The position numbers were made by a program, and so were the translations under genes. A DNA stretch of 64,000 bases from Luteolibacter pohnpeiensis (GTDB lineage Bacteria > Verrucomicrobiota > Verrucomicrobiia > Verrucomicrobiales > Akkermansiaceae): positions 1 to 64,000 of the forward strand of contig NZ_JAENIJ010000023.1 in NCBI RefSeq assembly GCF_016595435.1, read 5' to 3'. The notes under the pieces were generated by a model. It was not told the DNA's origin. It saw nothing but the letters and a program-made list of their open reading frames with translations, and did no database searches. Each line of letters begins with the position of its first letter. Within the stretch, counting starts at the first letter, position 1. This document shows, in pieces, positions 53,936 to 62,409 of the stretch.

Positions 53936-56900
53936 TCACATCGGCGCGAGCAGCTGCGATAGGGTATCGGAATCGATTTTGAGTTTGCTGACTTCTTCCG
54001 AGAGCAGCGCTTTGACCAGATTGCTCTTGCGTTGCTGCAACTGTTGAATGCGTTCTTCGATGCTGCCTTTGCAGATGAGTTTGTGAACAAACACGGGCTT
54101 CTCCTGACCGATGCGATGGGCGCGATCCGTTGCTTGAGCCTCGGCGGCAGGATTCCACCATGGGTCATAGTGAATCACCGTGTCAGCAGCTGTTAGATTG
54201 AGGCCGGTGCCGCCGGCTTTGAGTGAGATCAGAAATAGCGGAGCTTTTCCGGATTGGAATGCTTTGACTAACTTTGCGCGCTCGGTCGCTGGAGTGGCGC
54301 CGGTGAGTTTGAGATAGGGCGTTTTCTCCTTCGCTAGATGTTGCTCGATCAGCTCAAGCATGGTGGTGAATTGTGAAAAGATCAGAATCTTCCGTCCTTC
54401 CTCCAGTAAAGTCGGCAGCAGGTCTTTTGTTAGAAAATCCAGCTTCGCGGAAGGTCCGGCTTTTCGTGCGGCGGGTGTGTCTAACAAGATGGGGTGGCAG
54501 CAGATTTGCCGAAGCTTGAGCAGGGCGTCCAAAACAACAATCTGCGACCGGTTGAGGCCTTTGTCCGAGATCGCGTCGCGAATCCGGGAGTCCATTGCGG
54601 CGCGAACTGATTCGTAAAGGTCGGCTTGCTTGGTGGTGAGTGGAATGCTGTGGATGATCTCGGTTTTTTCCGGCAGATCGGTAGCAACCTCATCCTTGGT
54701 GCGGCGCAGCAGCAAGGGGCCAACCCGGCGATTGAGAGCAGCTTGTGCATTGCCGTCCTGCTGGCGCTCAATAGGCGTTCGGAAGGATTTGTTAAAATGT
54801 TCCGAACTGCCGAGGAAGCCGGGCATCAGAAATCGCATCAGGCTCCATAGTTCGCCAAGGTGGTTTTCCATCGGCGTGCCGGACAGGCAGAGCCGGTGGC
54901 GCGCTTGGACCTGATAGAGTGTTTGGGCGGTGTTAGATTTCGGGTTTTTGATGTGCTGGGCTTCGTCAAGCACCAAGCAGTTCCATTGCAATTCCTTGAG
55001 ATCTTCGAAGTCGCGGACGATCAGCGGGTAGGAAGTGATGACGAGGTCGGCATGCTGGATTTCAGCAAACAACGATTTGCGGGCTGGCCCCTGCAGCAAC
55101 AGGACTTTGAGGGATGGTGTGAATCGCGCGGCTTCGCTCTGCCAGTTAGATACTACGGATGTAGGAGCAATGACGAGCGATGGCAGCCCGCCTGACTGTT
55201 CCGGTGCGGATTGCGCCAACAGATGGCCAAGCGTTTGCAGGGTTTTGCCGAGGCCCATGTCGTCAGCTAGAATTCCATGCAGATCCTGGCTGGCTAGAAA
55301 TTGCAGCCAGCGGTATCCATCGAGTTGGTATGGGCGGAGCTTGGCCTTTAAGTCCTTCGGTAACACTGCTGCCGGCAGGCTTTTGATTTCACTCAGACGC
55401 TTTCCAAGATTGCGTAGCGATCGAATGGTGGCGTCGGAATCCTTTTCCGGGATGGTTAGAGCAAGATCCGCTGCTTCCAGGCGATGGAGCAAAAGTCCGT
55501 TGGTCGATGCAGGCTTGTCGTAGAGATGGCGAATGGATTCGACCACTTCAAGAAAGCGCCGTTTTGGGAAACTGATAAATCCGCCGTTTTGATGGGGCGA
55601 TGGAAAGGCAAGGAATTCGTCCTCAGCGATATCTTCTGGCGATAGAAAGGTGTGTGTTTGTTGAAGATATCTGGCAATCAGTGGAATCAAACTGAAGGTC
55701 TGGCCCTCGGTTTCGAACGTGTAGTCGAAGCGAAACCAGTCGATTCCGTCGACCTGTTCTTGTTCGAGATGGGGAGCAAAAGATTCGATATGGGTGAGTT
55801 CGAGTCCGAGGTCGGAATCAATGATGATTTCCCAACCGTTTTTTTTCAAATCCTCGAAGCAGTCGCTATGAATCAGTTCGAACCAGGCGGTATCTGGTTC
55901 GTCGAAATACTCGATGGGCACGAAAATTTCCTCGTTCTCTGGATCGAGCAAGTTGGGGTTCAGAATTTCCGATAGAGGCACGAAATCGTAGTAACTCAGA
56001 GTTTCAAGATGCTCGTCCTCGGCAGACTCGTTGCGGCGATAAATGGTGCGCTTGCCCTCGGTTTGGACCACGACCTGTTTTTCGGATGTCGGGCGGGTGT
56101 AGTAGGCTGGGAGTTGTGGGCTGTCTTCGTAGCGGAAGCTAAGTTCCGCAGCGATGATCGGTTCGCGGTCTGAATTTGCCCTGGGGAGGGTGCGGACTTG
56201 GTGGAGGGATACATGAAGCCGAGGAACCGGCCTTGCCTTCACCGTGCGTGATTCGATTTTTAGAGGCGCGGGGAGTTCTGAATCAGCAGTCGCTTCCGAA
56301 ATTTCAGCGAGCGCGGAACTGACTTGTGGAGCCAGGTCCTGAGTGATGGATGGTCCGTTTTGCCACGTTTGCAGAAGAGCCTCGGAGAATTGGCTTTCGA
56401 TTTTACCGATTTGCCCATGGATACGATCCAGATAGCGGGGTAAATCGGTTCCGAGAACTGCTGCGCCATCTGGATCTAACAACTCCAGGCACGGCTGCAT
56501 TCTGCCATCGGTTAGAAGCTTCCAGCCCGGTTTTCCCTGCTTTGGAGGACCTGCGGATAGCGCGTGATAGGTTCCGTTGCTCAGTTGTAAAAACAAACGA
56601 CCCGTTGCTTCCATCCGATCGAGCAAAGATGCGCTGCCGATGGTTCGGATTCGCACTCCGTCGGATTGTCCTGAAATCAGTTGGAGATGCTGGTAGGTTG
56701 TGACCAGCGCATGATCTTCAGCGGCCAGATATTTAGGAGGCTTTGATAAATTTGGAGCGGCGCGGGATGATTCCACCATGGGTGAATCATTTTGATCCCG
56801 AGGAAATCGTGCCTGGCGCAGAACCAACTCCAGTTCGCCACCAACCAGGGCTTCCGCTTCCTCCAAGCAGTATGCAAGAAAGCGATCGTGCCGCCCAGTT

Positions 56901-57352
56901 GATGGGGAAGTGGTCTTTGCCGAATTTGCATAGAGTTTTTCGAGCCACACCCTGGTGGATGAAATCGAAACGTCATCGGCAAATTCAATTTGCTCTGGAG
57001 CTGGCAGTGCCTGCCATGCCTTGGTGATTTCCGCCATTGCCGCGACTGCATGCTTGCATTGGTAGCCGACCGGGCAGCTGCATGACGAAACTGTCGCCCA
57101 GGTTTCTTTGCGTGGGCGCAACGAGATCGAAACATCATAAGGGCGTCGACCAGATCCTGAAACTTTTGCTGCAATCTCAATCCCCGTTTTTTCAGGGAGG
57201 TCAATCGTGATCGAAATGACTTTGCCCAGGTAAGCATAGTAGTTCCCGCGCGCCAGGCTGCCGCCATCGAACTCACGTTGCCAGCTTTCACTGAACATGT
57301 AGTCGCGCAGCGACCCCAGCGGCTGGAGACGTTCGAGAAAGTTAATCTTCAT
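53936..57352 (-). CDS. SNF2-family helicase with N-terminal SWIM zinc finger
   Basis: A 1138-residue DNA-dependent ATPase. The SWIM zinc finger C-x-C-x5-C-x-H is at 91-101 (CSCPVGYQCKH). The SNF2 motor occupies the last 500 residues: Walker A DDMGLGKTLQTL, LVLDEAQHIKN, CLSGTPMEN, the C-terminal helicase block ILIFSQFTTMLELIEQHL and TDRAHRIGQ. The middle part (about 150-600) is the bacterial SNF2-associated helical/beta region. The family is common in Gram-positives and Verrucomicrobia; roles in chromatin remodelling-like or repair processes are unproven. It stands alone, convergent with the nucleotidyltransferase gene. Confidence 0.92.
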   Translation of the reverse strand: MKINFLERLQPLGSLRDYMFSESWQREFDGGSLARGNYYAYLGKVISITIDLPEKTGIEIAAKVSGSGRRPYDVSISLRPRKETWATVSSCSCPVGYQCKHAVAAMAEITKAWQALPAPEQIEFADDVSISSTRVWLEKLYANSAKTTSPSTGRHDRFLAYCLEEAEALVGGELELVLRQARFPRDQNDSPMVESSRAAPNLSKPPKYLAAEDHALVTTYQHLQLISGQSDGVRIRTIGSASLLDRMEATGRLFLQLSNGTYHALSAGPPKQGKPGWKLLTDGRMQPCLELLDPDGAAVLGTDLPRYLDRIHGQIGKIESQFSEALLQTWQNGPSITQDLAPQVSSALAEISEATADSELPAPLKIESRTVKARPVPRLHVSLHQVRTLPRANSDREPIIAAELSFRYEDSPQLPAYYTRPTSEKQVVVQTEGKRTIYRRNESAEDEHLETLSYYDFVPLSEILNPNLLDPENEEIFVPIEYFDEPDTAWFELIHSDCFEDLKKNGWEIIIDSDLGLELTHIESFAPHLEQEQVDGIDWFRFDYTFETEGQTFSLIPLIARYLQQTHTFLSPEDIAEDEFLAFPSPHQNGGFISFPKRRFLEVVESIRHLYDKPASTNGLLLHRLEAADLALTIPEKDSDATIRSLRNLGKRLSEIKSLPAAVLPKDLKAKLRPYQLDGYRWLQFLASQDLHGILADDMGLGKTLQTLGHLLAQSAPEQSGGLPSLVIAPTSVVSNWQSEAARFTPSLKVLLLQGPARKSLFAEIQHADLVITSYPLIVRDFEDLKELQWNCLVLDEAQHIKNPKSNTAQTLYQVQARHRLCLSGTPMENHLGELWSLMRFLMPGFLGSSEHFNKSFRTPIERQQDGNAQAALNRRVGPLLLRRTKDEVATDLPEKTEIIHSIPLTTKQADLYESVRAAMDSRIRDAISDKGLNRSQIVVLDALLKLRQICCHPILLDTPAARKAGPSAKLDFLTKDLLPTLLEEGRKILIFSQFTTMLELIEQHLAKEKTPYLKLTGATPATERAKLVKAFQSGKAPLFLISLKAGGTGLNLTAADTVIHYDPWWNPAAEAQATDRAHRIGQEKPVFVHKLICKGSIEERIQQLQQRKSNLVKALLSEEVSKLKIDSDTLSQLLAPM

Positions 57353-57407: not shown

Positions 57408-59801
57408 TCAGTTCTCATCAGGACTCGCCTGACACCAGCCGGGAAGGAGGAAAATCGCAACGATCATCGTGATGGAAATGCCGGTGACCGATACGAAACC
57501 GAGACTCCGCAGTGCCTCAATCGATGAGAAACAGAGCGAGCCGAATCCGATCACGGTAGAGACTCCACAGAACATCAAGGCCTTGCTGGTTCCATTCCAA
57601 AGCTCTTTGAACGAACATCCGGTCCGGCGGATGGTTAGAATCACGTGGATTGCGTAGTCGATGCCGGTGCCTAACAAAAGCGGGGTTGCCATCAGGTTGA
57701 CGAAGTTCCAGGTTAGTCCGGCAAAACTCATCACCGCGAGCATCAGCAAACCGCTCAATGACATTGCGACAAGCGCGGCGAGGATGTCACCGGGACGACG
57801 GAAGATGAAAATCATCATTCCGACCAGCAACAGAAACATCGGGATGAGCACACGCATGACATCCTTTCCGACGAGATCTGAAATCGCCGGATTGAACAAA
57901 CGCCAGTCACTGAGCCAGATGCCGGAACCGGTGAGAGCGCGGAATTTTGGGAAATCGGCCCCGGCTGGTTTGGCCGTGGGTGCGAGATCGATGTTTCCTA
58001 ACAAAGCACCGCTGCCATCGGCTTTGCGAGCCATGGCTACCCGTGTGATTTCGATCGCACTTTCTTGTTGGGGAAATACCAAGCCGTTGTGAGCTGTTAG
58101 AGTGGCCATTTCACTGAGGACGGAATTGCCGAGTGCGGTTCCCTCTTCGGTGAATCCCGCTTCACCCGCTTCATGCATCAGCCGGTCGCGATGAGTCGCA
58201 AGCTCCGCCAGAATGGCGCGGTTTTTGGTTTGGGAAGCTTCATCCGGCCACCAGCCGATGGGAAAATGAGCTGCACGGATCAGGCCCGATTTTTCGGCGG
58301 AACTGAACCTCCGGTTCGCTTCCGCCACGCGCTCTAACATTTCAGGTCCGCTTTTTGCTTCGATGATCACTCCCATGGACTCGTCAGACCAGCGCGGGAA
58401 TGCTGCGGTGACGCGATCCAGTGCCGTCATTGCCTGACTGTTCGAAGGGCGCATGACCGATGAGTCAAACTGGGTTCCGGGAAGTCCGTGGATTGCCAGA
58501 ACCCCAAGGGCGGCGATGGCGAATCCTCCTGCCAAACCATAAGAGAGCATGCGTTTTGGGATCCATTTTCCGGTGCCTCGTGGCTGCCGTCGGTTGACGC
58601 CAAACCGAACGACGAATGGCAGGTAGCCGGAGATCATGATGGCTGCGGCAGCGAAAAGTCCGGTGGCGACGATGGTTCCAAGCTGTCCCATCCCGGGAAG
58701 GCCTGCGAGGTTGAGAGCAAGAAATACGACGATCGTCGTAGCCGCGCACCACATGACCGGCTTCGCACTGGCATCGCGCAGGGAGTTTGCATTGCTGCCG
58801 CTGAGTTTTGCTTCCTGGCAGATGATCAATCCATAATCGACGGAAAGCCCGATCAGAATGCCAAAGGAGCTGAATGCCATGATGCCCAGGCTGCCGTAAA
58901 TCCATCCAGCGACGCCAAGCGCGACGGCGAAAACCAAAACCTGCACGCCTATCAGTCCGGCTAACAGGATCAGCCGCCGTTGCATCCACCAAAACAACAG
59001 CGCGATCAGTCCGAGTGTGATGCCGATGGAGCCACTGAGATCACGTTCCATCGAGTGCCCGATTTCCGATGAAAATGCTGGCTCGCCGGTTAACCCCACC
59101 TCGATTCCCTGCCCGTCTGTTTTTTGCCAGGCCGCGATGGATTGCCTGACCTTGGCCAGCCAGGCATCAGCATCGCGATAACCAGCGATTGGTTTTGGTG
59201 AATCGATAAACAACAAATGGGAGTGGCCATCAGCGCTTTCAAAAGCCGCGCCGCTTTGTGAGCTGTTAGAGGTAAGTGCCGTAATGGCGGGATGATCGAG
59301 AAAGCCAAATGGATCGTGGGCACGCATGGCCAGCCCCTCGCCTTCCATGGCTGTGGCGATACGTGCGATGGCACCATCCAGTGTCTTTCGTGAATTCTCA
59401 GGAGATAACTTTTCCGCCAGAGCTTGGGTCGATTCCGGATCACCGTTCAGCCACAAGTAGGCGATGAGTTCCGACAGGCCCTCGGGTGATTGCATCCACA
59501 TGGGCTGCCAGCGGGCGCGCCTTGCATTGCCATCGGCCAGTAATCGCTCGCCGAGAGATTGGGCGGCGTCTTCGAGCGAATCGGTTTCATCGTCCTTGCT
59601 TTGGATCAAAATGACCAATTCGTCGTTTTTGGCGAAAGCCTGATGATAACTTTCCAATCCTCGAACTTCCGGCAAATCGCCGGGTAACATGGATAGGATG
59701 TTTGTATCAAACTTGAGTCGGAACATGCCAGCTGCCGCGACCAGGATGAAGAGCACGAAAATCAGCGGCAATGCGAGGCGGCGCAGCATGAAGGGACTCA
59801 A
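57408..59801 (-). CDS. MMPL/RND-family exporter
   Basis: A 797-residue RND-superfamily membrane protein of the MMPL type. A first helix (MLRRLALPLIFVLFILVAA) is followed by a periplasmic domain to about 240, five helices (about 255-410), a second periplasmic domain and a C-terminal helix bundle (about 640-790). The repeated pattern is the duplicated MMPL topology of 12 helices. Such proteins export lipids or hydrophobic compounds using the proton gradient. The starts of this gene and bufA are divergent, with about 170 bases between them. Confidence 0.88.
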   Translation of the reverse strand: MSPFMLRRLALPLIFVLFILVAAAGMFRLKFDTNILSMLPGDLPEVRGLESYHQAFAKNDELVILIQSKDDETDSLEDAAQSLGERLLADGNARRARWQPMWMQSPEGLSELIAYLWLNGDPESTQALAEKLSPENSRKTLDGAIARIATAMEGEGLAMRAHDPFGFLDHPAITALTSNSSQSGAAFESADGHSHLLFIDSPKPIAGYRDADAWLAKVRQSIAAWQKTDGQGIEVGLTGEPAFSSEIGHSMERDLSGSIGITLGLIALLFWWMQRRLILLAGLIGVQVLVFAVALGVAGWIYGSLGIMAFSSFGILIGLSVDYGLIICQEAKLSGSNANSLRDASAKPVMWCAATTIVVFLALNLAGLPGMGQLGTIVATGLFAAAAIMISGYLPFVVRFGVNRRQPRGTGKWIPKRMLSYGLAGGFAIAALGVLAIHGLPGTQFDSSVMRPSNSQAMTALDRVTAAFPRWSDESMGVIIEAKSGPEMLERVAEANRRFSSAEKSGLIRAAHFPIGWWPDEASQTKNRAILAELATHRDRLMHEAGEAGFTEEGTALGNSVLSEMATLTAHNGLVFPQQESAIEITRVAMARKADGSGALLGNIDLAPTAKPAGADFPKFRALTGSGIWLSDWRLFNPAISDLVGKDVMRVLIPMFLLLVGMMIFIFRRPGDILAALVAMSLSGLLMLAVMSFAGLTWNFVNLMATPLLLGTGIDYAIHVILTIRRTGCSFKELWNGTSKALMFCGVSTVIGFGSLCFSSIEALRSLGFVSVTGISITMIVAIFLLPGWCQASPDEN

Positions 59802-59866: not shown

Positions 59867-59884
59867 AAATTTTCGAAATTTTCG
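59867..59884. promoter_or_regulatory. tandem AAATTTTCG direct repeat upstream of the bufferin-like operon
   Basis: Two exact nine-base copies, AAATTTTCG at 59867-59875 and 59876-59884, lie in the divergent region between the MMPL gene and bufA. AT-rich repeats here could be a promoter element or regulator site. Confidence 0.4.
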
Positions 59885-59922
59885 TTCATGTTTTCCGCAT
59901 TCGGACGGCTCAGAGGCATGGA

Positions 59923-59970: not shown

Positions 59971-60204
59971 ATGAAACTGAATCAATCCCTGATGGCTGCC
60001 GCTGTCGCTGGAATCGTTGCCGCAGGTACTGCTACCGCTCAACCTCAGAGCACCGGTGCTCACAAGGAAATCGCCTCCAAAGACGGCTGCAAAAGCAAGG
60101 AAGGCTGCGACAGCAAGGAAAAGAAAAAGGAGACCGAGAAAGAGAGCTGCTCTACCAAAGAGGGCTGTTCCACGAAGGAAAAGAAAGGGCAGAGCATTCT
60201 GTAA
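59971..60204 (+). CDS. bufA: bufferin-like RiPP precursor
   Basis: A 77-residue precursor. The Sec signal peptide (residues 1-23, cleavage near ATA) precedes a lysine/glutamate-rich core with four Cys at 40, 46, 60 and 66. Two 20-residue-spaced repeats share C-x5-C within SKEGC and STKEGC. MNIO (DUF692) enzymes modify Cys or Asn residues in such peptides; bufferins bind copper or zinc and protect from metal stress. Here the DUF692, DUF2063 and DoxX genes follow in order, supporting the assignment. The repeat pattern is unlike the C-x2-C type of the best-known bufferins, so the product may be a variant. Confidence 0.8.
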   Translation: MKLNQSLMAAAVAGIVAAGTATAQPQSTGAHKEIASKDGCKSKEGCDSKEKKKETEKESCSTKEGCSTKEKKGQSIL

Positions 60205-60229
60205 CGTCCGGCCACAACATTTGGGAAGT

Positions 60230-60260
60230 GGCTCTGACGTGATCCGTCGGAGCCGCTTTT
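60230..60260 (+). terminator. attenuator between precursor and modifying genes
   Basis: GGCTCTGACG (60230-60239) pairs with CGTCGGAGCC (60245-60254) through ten base pairs including one G-U, then GC and TTTT. Located 25 bases after the precursor stop and 25 bases before bufB, it would let most transcripts stop after bufA, giving excess precursor over enzyme. Confidence 0.75.
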
Positions 60261-60285
60261 CCCATCACTCTAATTTTTTCAACTT

Positions 60286-61152
60286 ATGGCCCATCCACGC
60301 TTTACGAATGGTTTCGAGCTCGGCATTGGCATCGGCCTCCGGGTCCCTCATTACGATCATATTCTTTCGGAGAAACCCGCGGTTGCCTGGTTTGAAATCA
60401 TCTCCGAAAATTATATGGTCGATGGGGGTCGCCCGCTGGAGGTGTTGGATCAAATTCTTGAGCAGTATCAGGTGGTGCAGCATGGCGTCGGGCTTTATCC
60501 CGGCAATCATGAGGGATTGGACTTCGAACATCTGAAGCGATTGAAAACGCTGGCGGGTCGCACGAAAACGCCGTGGTTCTCCGATCATTTATGCTGGGGC
60601 AGTGTGGATGGAACTTTCAGCCACGATCTACTGCCACTACCGTACACGATGGAGTCGGCCCGTAAGGTGGCTGCCAACCTCCGCATCGCGCAGGATTTCA
60701 TGGAGCTCCCGCTTGCCGTCGAAAATGTCAGCAGTTATGTGGAGTTCCATCAATCGGAGATGACGGAGTGGGAGTTTCTCACGGAAGTGGTCGAGATGGC
60801 GGATGTCGGGATATTGCTGGATGTAAACAATATCCACGTTTCATCGATCAACCACGGATTTGATGCGATGGAATATGTCAATTTCATCCCCGCCGAGCGA
60901 GTGACCCAAATGCACATCGCTGGCCATTCGAAGTATGAACGCTTCATCATTGATACGCATGACCATCCTGTGGTCGATCCGGTTTGGAAGTTGTATGCGC
61001 GGGCGATTGAACGATGCGGCGCGACCGCCACTTTGCTGGAATGGGATGCGAAGATTCCATCGTTTGACGAAGTGTGGTCGGAAGCAAAGAAGGCCTGCAA
61101 TTATTGGGATCATGTCCCGCAAATTACATATCTTCATGAAACCGTTGCTTGA
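60286..61152 (+). CDS. bufB: MNIO-family (DUF692) peptide-modifying oxidase, BufB-like
   Basis: A 288-residue TIM-barrel multinuclear non-heme iron enzyme. Metal-ligand blocks typical of the family are visible: QHGVGLYPG (His66), FSDHLCW (Asp100, His101), ENVSSY (Glu146), LLDVNNIHVS (Asp179, Asn181/Asn182, His184), QMHIAGH (His210, His214), DTHDHPV (Asp223, His225) and LLEWDA (Glu252). Related enzymes TglH, MbnB, ChrH and BufB oxidise Cys or Asn residues of precursor peptides. It follows the Cys-rich precursor and precedes the DUF2063 partner, whose ATG overlaps its end by 17 bases. Confidence 0.93.
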   Translation: MAHPRFTNGFELGIGIGLRVPHYDHILSEKPAVAWFEIISENYMVDGGRPLEVLDQILEQYQVVQHGVGLYPGNHEGLDFEHLKRLKTLAGRTKTPWFSDHLCWGSVDGTFSHDLLPLPYTMESARKVAANLRIAQDFMELPLAVENVSSYVEFHQSEMTEWEFLTEVVEMADVGILLDVNNIHVSSINHGFDAMEYVNFIPAERVTQMHIAGHSKYERFIIDTHDHPVVDPVWKLYARAIERCGATATLLEWDAKIPSFDEVWSEAKKACNYWDHVPQITYLHETVA

Positions 61153-61939
61153 AGCCACCCAGAAGGAATTCTTCACGGCATTATTGGAGCCGTTGCGGGG
61201 GAGTAGTCGGATGGCGACAGATTTTACGCCAACCAACGATCCTCATTCGGATCATTTTCTCCAAGTTGCGGATCGCCTGGTGCGGCCAGGGCCGAATCTG
61301 ACTCCGGCGGAAGGGTTGGAGCTGTATCATCGGCAATATTGGTTCCGCTTGATCGATTCGTTAGCGGAAGATTTTCCCGGTTTGAGAAGGCTGTTAGGCG
61401 AAACCCGATTCTGGCAGCTTATCGAGTCCTATCTGTTGAGCCATCCTTCACGGAGTTTCACTCTGCGCCATCTGGGGCAGAGCCTCCCTCCCATGGTGAC
61501 GGAATCTGAGGGAGAATTCGCAGGTTCAGTCGCTCAGGTCGAGTGGACGATGATGCTGGCTTTTGAAGCTGCACAGCTCCCGTTGCCTGATGCGGTTTCC
61601 TTCACCGAGAGCAGGATCCAATTGCAGCCGCATGTTCACATCCTGGAGCTGCCGGTGGCGGCAGGCAAATGGCTCGATCGGGAAGCGACCGATATTTTAC
61701 CGTTTGTTAGGGAGCCTTCGCTGGTGGTTGTTTGGAGAACCCACTCCGGATCCGTGGTGCATCGGACGGTGGATCGAGCGGCTTTGCCAATGCTGGCAGC
61801 GCTTCGGCAAGGCGGTCTGCTTGAGCATCTGTTAGCGGAAGTGGAAAAGGATCTGCCCGACACGGAGCAGGTATTCGAGTGGTTCCGAGATTGGCAGCAG
61901 CTTGGCTGGTTCGGTGTTTCAACCCTTCAGATCTCATGA
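61136..61939 (+). CDS. bufC: DUF2063 partner protein, BufC-like
   Basis: A 267-residue protein starting MKPLLEATQKEFF; the start overlaps bufB by 17 bases and a further upstream frame is not conserved. The DUF2063 hallmark is GLELYHRQYWFRLIDSLAED, FPGLRRLLG, and HPSRSFTLRHLGQSLP. The N-terminal part is a putative DNA/peptide-binding helical domain and the C-terminal part is beta-rich. In MNIO systems such a partner (BufC, MbnC-like) binds the precursor and presents it to the oxidase. The stop overlaps the DoxX start (ATGA). Confidence 0.88.
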   Translation: MKPLLEATQKEFFTALLEPLRGSSRMATDFTPTNDPHSDHFLQVADRLVRPGPNLTPAEGLELYHRQYWFRLIDSLAEDFPGLRRLLGETRFWQLIESYLLSHPSRSFTLRHLGQSLPPMVTESEGEFAGSVAQVEWTMMLAFEAAQLPLPDAVSFTESRIQLQPHVHILELPVAAGKWLDREATDILPFVREPSLVVVWRTHSGSVVHRTVDRAALPMLAALRQGGLLEHLLAEVEKDLPDTEQVFEWFRDWQQLGWFGVSTLQIS

Positions 61940-62409
61940 TGAAATCCATTCTAAAACGTGGCGAGGATTTGCAGCGTCTGGGACAGGATCTCGTATTGCT
62001 TTTCCTCCGGTTGCTCGTGGGGTGGCAGTTGATTCTAACGGGAAAGGGCAAGCTGACCCATATCGACCAGTTTTCGACCTTTTTTGAAAGTCTGCATATC
62101 CCTGCACCGACGGTTCATGTGGTGGCAATTGGTTTGATCGAAGCCCTGGGAGGATTCGCCCTGTTGCTGGGATTCTTTGCCAGGGGAGCTGCCCTATTTA
62201 TCAGTTTGGCAATGATTGGAGCTTATCTAACGGCTCATCGCGATGAAGCGTTCGGCAGTCCCGGAGATTTCGTCGACGCCGCACCCTTTCCATATCTAAC
62301 AGTGGCTTTGGTGGTGTTGGTATTTGGAGCGGGTGGAATCTCCCTCGACAGGGCTAGGACAAGCCTGCTTGCGAATAAGAGGCAAATAACGCAGTCTGCA
62401 ACGGATTGA
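61936..62409 (+). CDS. DoxX-family membrane protein of the bufferin-like operon
   Basis: A 157-residue membrane protein with four predicted helices (LVLLFLRLLVGWQLILTG, VHVVAIGLIEALGGFALLLG, AALFISLAMIGAYLTAH, PYLTVALVVLVFGAGGI). The DoxX fold (PF07681) includes the R-x2-VG...GKL motif at the first helix. DoxX genes commonly accompany MNIO clusters, where they may support redox or membrane metabolism. ATGATG start, coupled to bufC. It lies 11 bases before the sigma gene. Confidence 0.88.
   Translation: MMKSILKRGEDLQRLGQDLVLLFLRLLVGWQLILTGKGKLTHIDQFSTFFESLHIPAPTVHVVAIGLIEALGGFALLLGFFARGAALFISLAMIGAYLTAHRDEAFGSPGDFVDAAPFPYLTVALVVLVFGAGGISLDRARTSLLANKRQITQSATD

Follow-up and report, generated by a model that had tools for sequence, protein, structure and literature searches.

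Organization of the operon

The window (the whole 64,000-nucleotide stretch of DNA analyzed here) carries an operon of the bufferin/captophorin (MNIO-PME1) type from an Akkermansiaceae bacterium (Table 1). A small secreted precursor is encoded first, followed by a MNIO maturase, its DUF2063 partner, and a DoxX-like membrane protein. The MNIO scores above the cut-off of the BufB model and the DUF2063 and DoxX proteins above their Pfam cut-offs, which supports the initial annotation of a bufferin-like RiPP operon. Several other models fall short of their cut-offs (Table 1).

Table 1. Features of the operon in the window, with profile scores and cut-offs.
Feature	Position	Strand	Details
ECF-sigma promoter-like element	59884..59912	+	GTTCATG-N15-CGGCTCA, 58 nt 5′ of precursor ATG
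5′-UTR stem-loop	59916..59948	+	perfect 8-bp arm GATGGTGC/GCACCATC; fold -20.3 kcal/mol, z -4.25
RiPP precursor gene, 77 aa	59971..60204	+	signal peptide 59971-60039 (aa 1-23); mature part 54 aa
Stem-loop between precursor and MNIO	60222..60264	+	z about -4.4
MNIO (DUF692/BufB-type RiPP maturase), 288 aa	60286..61152	+	PF05114 345 bits; NF050167 (MNIO_BufB) 341.6 bits (cut-off 310)
DUF2063/PME1 partner (BufC/HvfC-type), RRE-like C-terminus, 267 aa	61136..61939	+	PF09836 60.5 bits (cut-off 27.2, Pfam profile search); below cut-off for PF22106 (19.6 bits) and NF050145 (32.6 bits)
DoxX/HvfX-like membrane protein, 156 aa	61939..62409 (start 61936/61939)	+	PF07681 65 bits (over Pfam cut-off); NF050144 44.5 bits (under cut-off 80)
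ECF (sigma-70 family) sigma factor, 198 aa	62420..63016	+	PF04542 52 bits; TIGR02937 above cut-off
Zinc-type (H-x3-C-x2-C) anti-sigma factor, 115 aa	63025..63372	+	NF052368 43 bits (slightly under cut-off 50)

The MNIO and DUF2063 genes overlap by 17 nt, with the DUF2063 ATG inside the MNIO 3′ end, and the DUF2063 and DoxX genes overlap by a few nt. The initial annotation correctly placed these three genes behind the precursor, but its description of the whole set as overlapping or tightly spaced does not extend to the precursor, which is separated from the MNIO gene by an 81-nt gap containing a strong stem-loop. The limits first assigned to the operon, 59971-62409, were also too narrow, as the promoter-like element and the sigma and anti-sigma genes, up to 63372, belong to it. 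A DUF2063 gene lies directly 3′ of the MNIO in related loci too. The absence of a precursor from related MNIO loci had been named as evidence against the reading; nearly every related locus whose contig spans the upstream region has a Cys/Lys precursor in first place. The recurrence of this architecture across related loci indicates that it is not due to chance.

Elsewhere in the window, the minus strand encodes an MMPL/RND-type exporter (57408-59801), divergent from the operon, and an SNF2-type helicase that matches DpdE/ZorD helicase models (53936-57352).

The precursor and its relatives

The product of the precursor ORF (MKLNQSLMAAAVAGIVAAGTATA/QPQSTGAHKEIASKDGCKSKEGCDSKEKKKETEKESCSTKEGCSTKEKKGQSIL) has a Sec-type N-terminus with an AxA site after Ala23 (the signal peptide was called by eye), followed by a Lys/Glu-rich mature part that is expected to be disordered. 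As first described, this secreted 77-residue peptide contains C-x5-C repeats 20 residues apart. The four Cys (residues 40, 46, 60, and 66) form the units CKSKEGC and CSTKEGC, with Lys directly after one of the four, and the C-terminus is -SIL. We did not find a match for the precursor among the BufA models, including BufA2 (NF050166, cut-off 60), nor a Pfam match above cut-off, and there was none to DUF2282. The six or twelve conserved Cys of BufA2 are not found in the sequence, and neither are EGKCG repeats.

We examined the upstream ORFs in approximately 120 related MNIO loci. Canonical Buf2-type precursors (CKGKNDCKGQGGCKSSDNGCKGKNSCKGKGGC) occur in Acidobacteriota, Opitutaceae, Phycisphaerae, other Verrucomicrobia, and others. 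The canonical BufA2-type core, CKGKNDCKGQGGC...CKGKNSCKGKGGC, contains C-x5-C and C-x4-C. The initial annotation took C-x2-C to be the bufferin core and C-x5-C to be the variant, which is contradicted by CKGKNDCKGQGGC. Thus, the C-x5-C spacing is inherited and is not the novelty of the window precursor. Judged from the sequences, the real difference of the window clade is the loss of the six-Cys, Cys-Lys core.

What the clade has in place of this core is a strict context around each Cys, K(97%)-[DE]-x-C-x-[GDST]-K(93%), with Lys at -3 and +3 (18 precursors, 90 Cys). Each Cys is followed by P, K, S, D, N, or E. C-x5-C pairs are found in the window and in G016, G267, G310, G029, and G034. Other members have one Cys per ~25-residue repeat, always as Cys-Pro (L130, L133, L135, L136, and L137, with L138, L139, and L140 similar). 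All window-clade precursors (18 and a concordant 19th) end in Ile-Leu, once Ile-Ile, as at 60190-60204 in the window, and this invariant C-terminus is possibly a signal for a protease or a partner. Three loci from Opitutaceae and other Verrucomicrobia (L030, L074, and L080) look intermediate, with CSGKDGC-like repeats ahead of a full Buf2 core.

A profile-profile comparison of window-clade and canonical Buf2 precursors gave a probability of 97.8%. As a single sequence, the window precursor matched canonical Buf2 at 12.9 bits; shuffles of its mature region averaged 7.9 and reached up to 21.5, and much of the similarity is owed to the signal peptide and to composition. Given this control, the homology of the core rests also on spacing, enzyme phylogeny, and synteny. 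The BufA2 model itself scored three canonical precursors at 32-35 bits (E 1e-7 to 1e-8), under the cut-off of 60, and its best match in the window's clade was the precursor of one relative (18 bits, E = 0.0024).

The MNIO and its specificity site

In captophorin enzymes, the specificity residue sits right after the catalytic Asp (PMC13097082). It is Phe in the Lys-Cys enzymes and Asp in the Cys-Lys (BufB2) enzymes, and has been modeled in contact with the Lys after Cys (PMC13097082). Aligned with 3BWW (LLERDFNFP), the window MNIO reads LLEWDAKIP, with Asp254 as the catalytic residue and Ala255 at the specificity site. The site is occupied by Ala in 11 and Gly in 10 of the 21 members of the window clade. 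LLEWDD is found in the four Akkermansiaceae loci of the canonical type and in most of the other canonical ones. The DTH motif, the catalytic Asp, and the residues that bind iron align with 3BWW and TglH and do not vary within the clade; 21/21 members keep each of the metal-ligand and catalytic positions inspected.

We computed the MNIO tree with the specificity column masked. The 19 Akkermansiaceae loci are grouped (SH-aLRT 99), with two deltaproteobacteria as sister (98). The closest MNIOs outside of the clade are from canonical Buf2-type loci and are 68-73% identical.

Ala/Gly at the specificity site accompanies the loss of Cys-Lys as a raw difference, with a mean Cys-Lys fraction of 0.36 vs. 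0.79. Phylogenetically independent pairs typically gave 2/4 in the same direction and 0 opposite, which is not significant. Addition of myxobacterial-phylum loci yielded six starred pairs, usually alike at the site, and eight low-Cys-Lys precursors with Asp/Glu at the site, in a rough set with automatic precursor picking in which at least one precursor (L175) was mis-picked. Statistical coevolution of the site with Cys-Lys loss was dropped because the independent pairs are too few. The data are consistent with an association, at the level of the clade only, between Ala/Gly and the altered core. As the association is that of one clade and the independent test was not significant, a relaxed requirement for Lys after Cys through Ala/Gly255 is treated as a hypothesis. 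The stronger version, that the enzyme lineage lost its Lys-reading Asp and now accepts Cys before almost any residue, including Pro, is possible, at somewhat less than even odds.

Ala at this site is also seen outside of the clade. A second, distant Verrucomicrobia MNIO group (L154-L161) has mostly Ala, and several of its precursors combine Tat-like (SRRxFL) signals with 9-10 mixed Cys motifs. The distant locus L175 (MNIO identity 51%) has Ala and a Lys/Asp-rich CGGKDGCGGK repeat precursor, and is possibly convergent.

Promoter-like element and sigma/anti-sigma pair

The promoter-like element of the window recurs, as GTTAAT[GC]-N15/16-CGACTCA, 52-73 nt 5′ of the precursor ATG in G016, G267, G310, and L012/G701; G700 has it with a single substitution. 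It is absent from 13 other loci. The element is present in all six genomes that bear the sigma factor and have readable upstream sequence, and in none of eight that lack the sigma factor; most of the latter have GGAATAAT upstream of the precursor in its place. The sigma gene adjoins the cluster in the element-bearing genomes, except in G016, where it is elsewhere in the genome, though the element still precedes the precursor. The unlinked G016 sigma gene is itself preceded by a weaker, similar sequence (GTTAAGAAACTGTCATGGAATACGACAA). Sigma loss was apparently one event, so the co-occurrence of promoter and sigma factor is circumstantial, not proof. This circumstantial evidence is strong, and suggests that the element is read by the ECF sigma factor. 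A scan for sigma-70 type promoters gave nothing above shuffles.

The exact promoter pattern has two matches in the whole 4.67-Mb window genome, thus any regulon is narrow. The search by promoter pattern gave no support for a wider regulon in this genome, as the one further match equals the count for a control pattern (1).

Linkage of the sigma gene with the cluster is seen in several genera and also in one deltaproteobacterium, and a partner 30-43% identical to the window anti-sigma follows it in relatives. In L012, L129, and L134, the gene order is precursor-DoxX-sigma-antisigma-MNIO-DUF2063. L048, on the deltaproteobacterial contig JACRCX010000128.1, has the window's gene order, including sigma and anti-sigma. 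The rearranged order in the former and the order in L048 indicate that the sigma pair belongs to the system. L048 is the only member close to the window clade among the 284 genomes of its phylum searched, and was likely acquired by horizontal transfer.

Stem-loops

A stem-loop occurs at the same place after the precursor in 19/19 clade precursor loci (z -2.0 to -7.0), and in most canonical loci tested. The sequences are unrelated among loci, and the structure stays with the precursor where the gene order differs. It is likely a partial terminator or a 3′-end stabilizer, which fits partial termination or mRNA protection with the precursor in excess.

Distribution and comparison with known systems

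The nearest loci are in Luteolibacter, Haloferula, and Akkermansiaceae metagenome bins. At the thresholds used, a related MNIO was found in 12/73 genomes of the genus and 22/260 of the family, thus the operon is patchy. The window genome has one MNIO. Four genomes carry a canonical Asp locus together with a divergent Ala/Gly locus: G083 (L128/L141), G185 (L130/L143), G213 (L131/L142), and G223 (L136/L144).

The window operon shares with Bufferin 2 (BufA2/Buf_6/12Cys; NF050166; the "Cys-Lys" captophorins) its gene set, kind of signal peptide, C-x5-C spacing, and GK spacing around Cys. It differs in that the window has no six-Cys (C-x5-C-x4-C)x2 core and has a linked ECF sigma/anti-sigma pair. 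The window clade also differs by its Lys/Glu/Asp-rich repeats without a fixed Lys after Cys, its Ile-Leu/Ile C-terminus, and Ala/Gly (Ala255 in the window), not Asp, after the catalytic Asp. The oxazolin/fontiphorin/gonophorin systems (EGKCG, "Lys-Cys" captophorins) have in common with the window a MNIO and DUF2063 (some also with DoxX) and a long flexible peptide with repeated Cys motifs. The window lacks their EGKCG and has EWDA where the solved relative 3BWW has ERDF, in which Phe follows the catalytic Asp. Bufferin 1 (DUF2282) operons with sigma/NrsF likewise include a sigma and anti-sigma, but the window precursor is not DUF2282 and its anti-sigma is of the zinc type, not NrsF. In PMC12452194, sigma factors are reported for Buf1 and not for Buf2 clusters. 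The "CxxxxC" family of PMC12452194 shares the signal peptide, Cys pairs, and MNIO/DUF2063/DoxX; its spacing is C-x4-C, vs. C-x5-C in the window, although some overlap with this family is possible.

In the library searched, no paper takes up bufferins together with Verrucomicrobia, or DUF692 together with Luteolibacter. Hundreds of unnamed small precursors stand before MNIO genes according to PMC12452194, and individual members of the window's precursor group may already be in its listings. The operon kind is known; what is new, as read from the sequences, is the lineage-specific core, the changed specificity residue, and the putative sigma-linked control.

Proposed function and alternatives

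We consider it probable (roughly 70%) that the window encodes a bufferin-2-derived captophorin operon for an exported, Cys-modified buffer of a soft metal, likely copper. The proposed working follows by analogy with all characterized MNIO-PME1 systems (PMC13097082; PMC13419390; PMC12452194). All characterized MNIO-PME1 pairs yield 5-thiooxazole and their products generally bind Cu (PMC13097082), and the DUF2063 partner and DoxX are part of the core bufferin cluster (PMC12452194). The DUF2063/RRE partner would hand the cytoplasmic precursor to the iron-dependent, mixed-valent diiron MNIO. The MNIO would oxidize the core Cys, most likely with a loss of 4 Da each, to 5-thiooxazole, and the Cys would thereby likely be turned into copper-chelating rings. 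Sec would then export the modified peptide, which would act in the cell envelope as a buffer against surplus soft metal (most likely copper), with DoxX assisting the peptide system in some way. The zinc-type anti-sigma would hold the ECF sigma factor until a metal or thiol-oxidation signal, and the freed sigma factor would drive transcription from the element at 59884-59912; metal or thiol stress is the probable trigger of the operon. The stem-loop that follows the precursor would keep the peptide in excess of the enzymes. The chemistry (5-thiooxazole), the copper ligand, and the inducing signal are what we infer for the window operon. The sequences speak neither for nor against the different metal preference that the initial annotation suggested.

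The enzyme pair could instead form a different product on these Cys, e.g., an oxazolone/thioamide or another heterocycle. In this direction point the Ala/Gly that replaces Asp/Phe beside the catalytic Asp in the whole clade, and the cores in which Cys is followed by Pro, Ser, Asn, Asp, or Glu; FonBC left unprocessed those tested substrates in which Cys precedes Pro or a charged residue (PMC13097082). However, the MNIO scores above the BufB cut-off with all ligands and the catalytic Asp kept, and FonB F250A and F250D still gave 5-thiooxazole (PMC13097082). We regard a different product as unlikely.

We give equally little credence to an operon that serves oxidative/thiol stress and not metal, in which the peptide would buffer the thiol redox state. 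The zinc-type anti-sigma is typical of redox-sensing pairs (the G016 homologue has weak RsrA-like similarity), and DoxX homologues are linked to oxidative or sulfur stress (PMC12452194). However, the MNIO-PME1 products that have been characterized bind copper, and cells facing excess copper grow better with bufferins. Less likely still is a mainly unmodified metallothionein-like or acidic/basic binder (Zn, Cd, Ca, others) with minor or partial modification: the very high Lys/Glu/Asp content and the single, widely spaced Cys of some relatives, unlike compact six-Cys bufferins, would suit it, but the MNIO is kept at every locus, the DUF2063 gene is kept wherever the contig reaches, and the strict Lys context of the Cys is as expected of an enzyme recognition motif.

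Implications

Some precursors of sister species bear on how 5-thiooxazole is made. Two published routes, azetidinone and direct-imidate, are disputed. The azetidinone route, towards which its authors lean, needs the amide N-H that the residue following Cys contributes. Proline has no amide N-H. All-Cys-Pro precursors with Gly at the MNIO specificity site are found in L136 (G223), L018, L130, L133, L135, L137, L139, and L140; locus L018/L136 belongs to Haloferula sp. BvORR071. If such precursors become 5-thiooxazole, the azetidinone route is excluded for them; if they are not converted, they carry another modification or none. The all-Cys-Pro precursors of sister species are thus natural substrates to decide between the two catalytic proposals.

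The genomes that have both a canonical and a divergent locus offer an internal comparison of the purpose of each. Bufferin-type operons have diversified in Akkermansiaceae, where the core is reworked, the residue beside the catalytic Asp is changed, and an ECF sigma/anti-sigma pair with an identifiable promoter probably serves as a dedicated switch.
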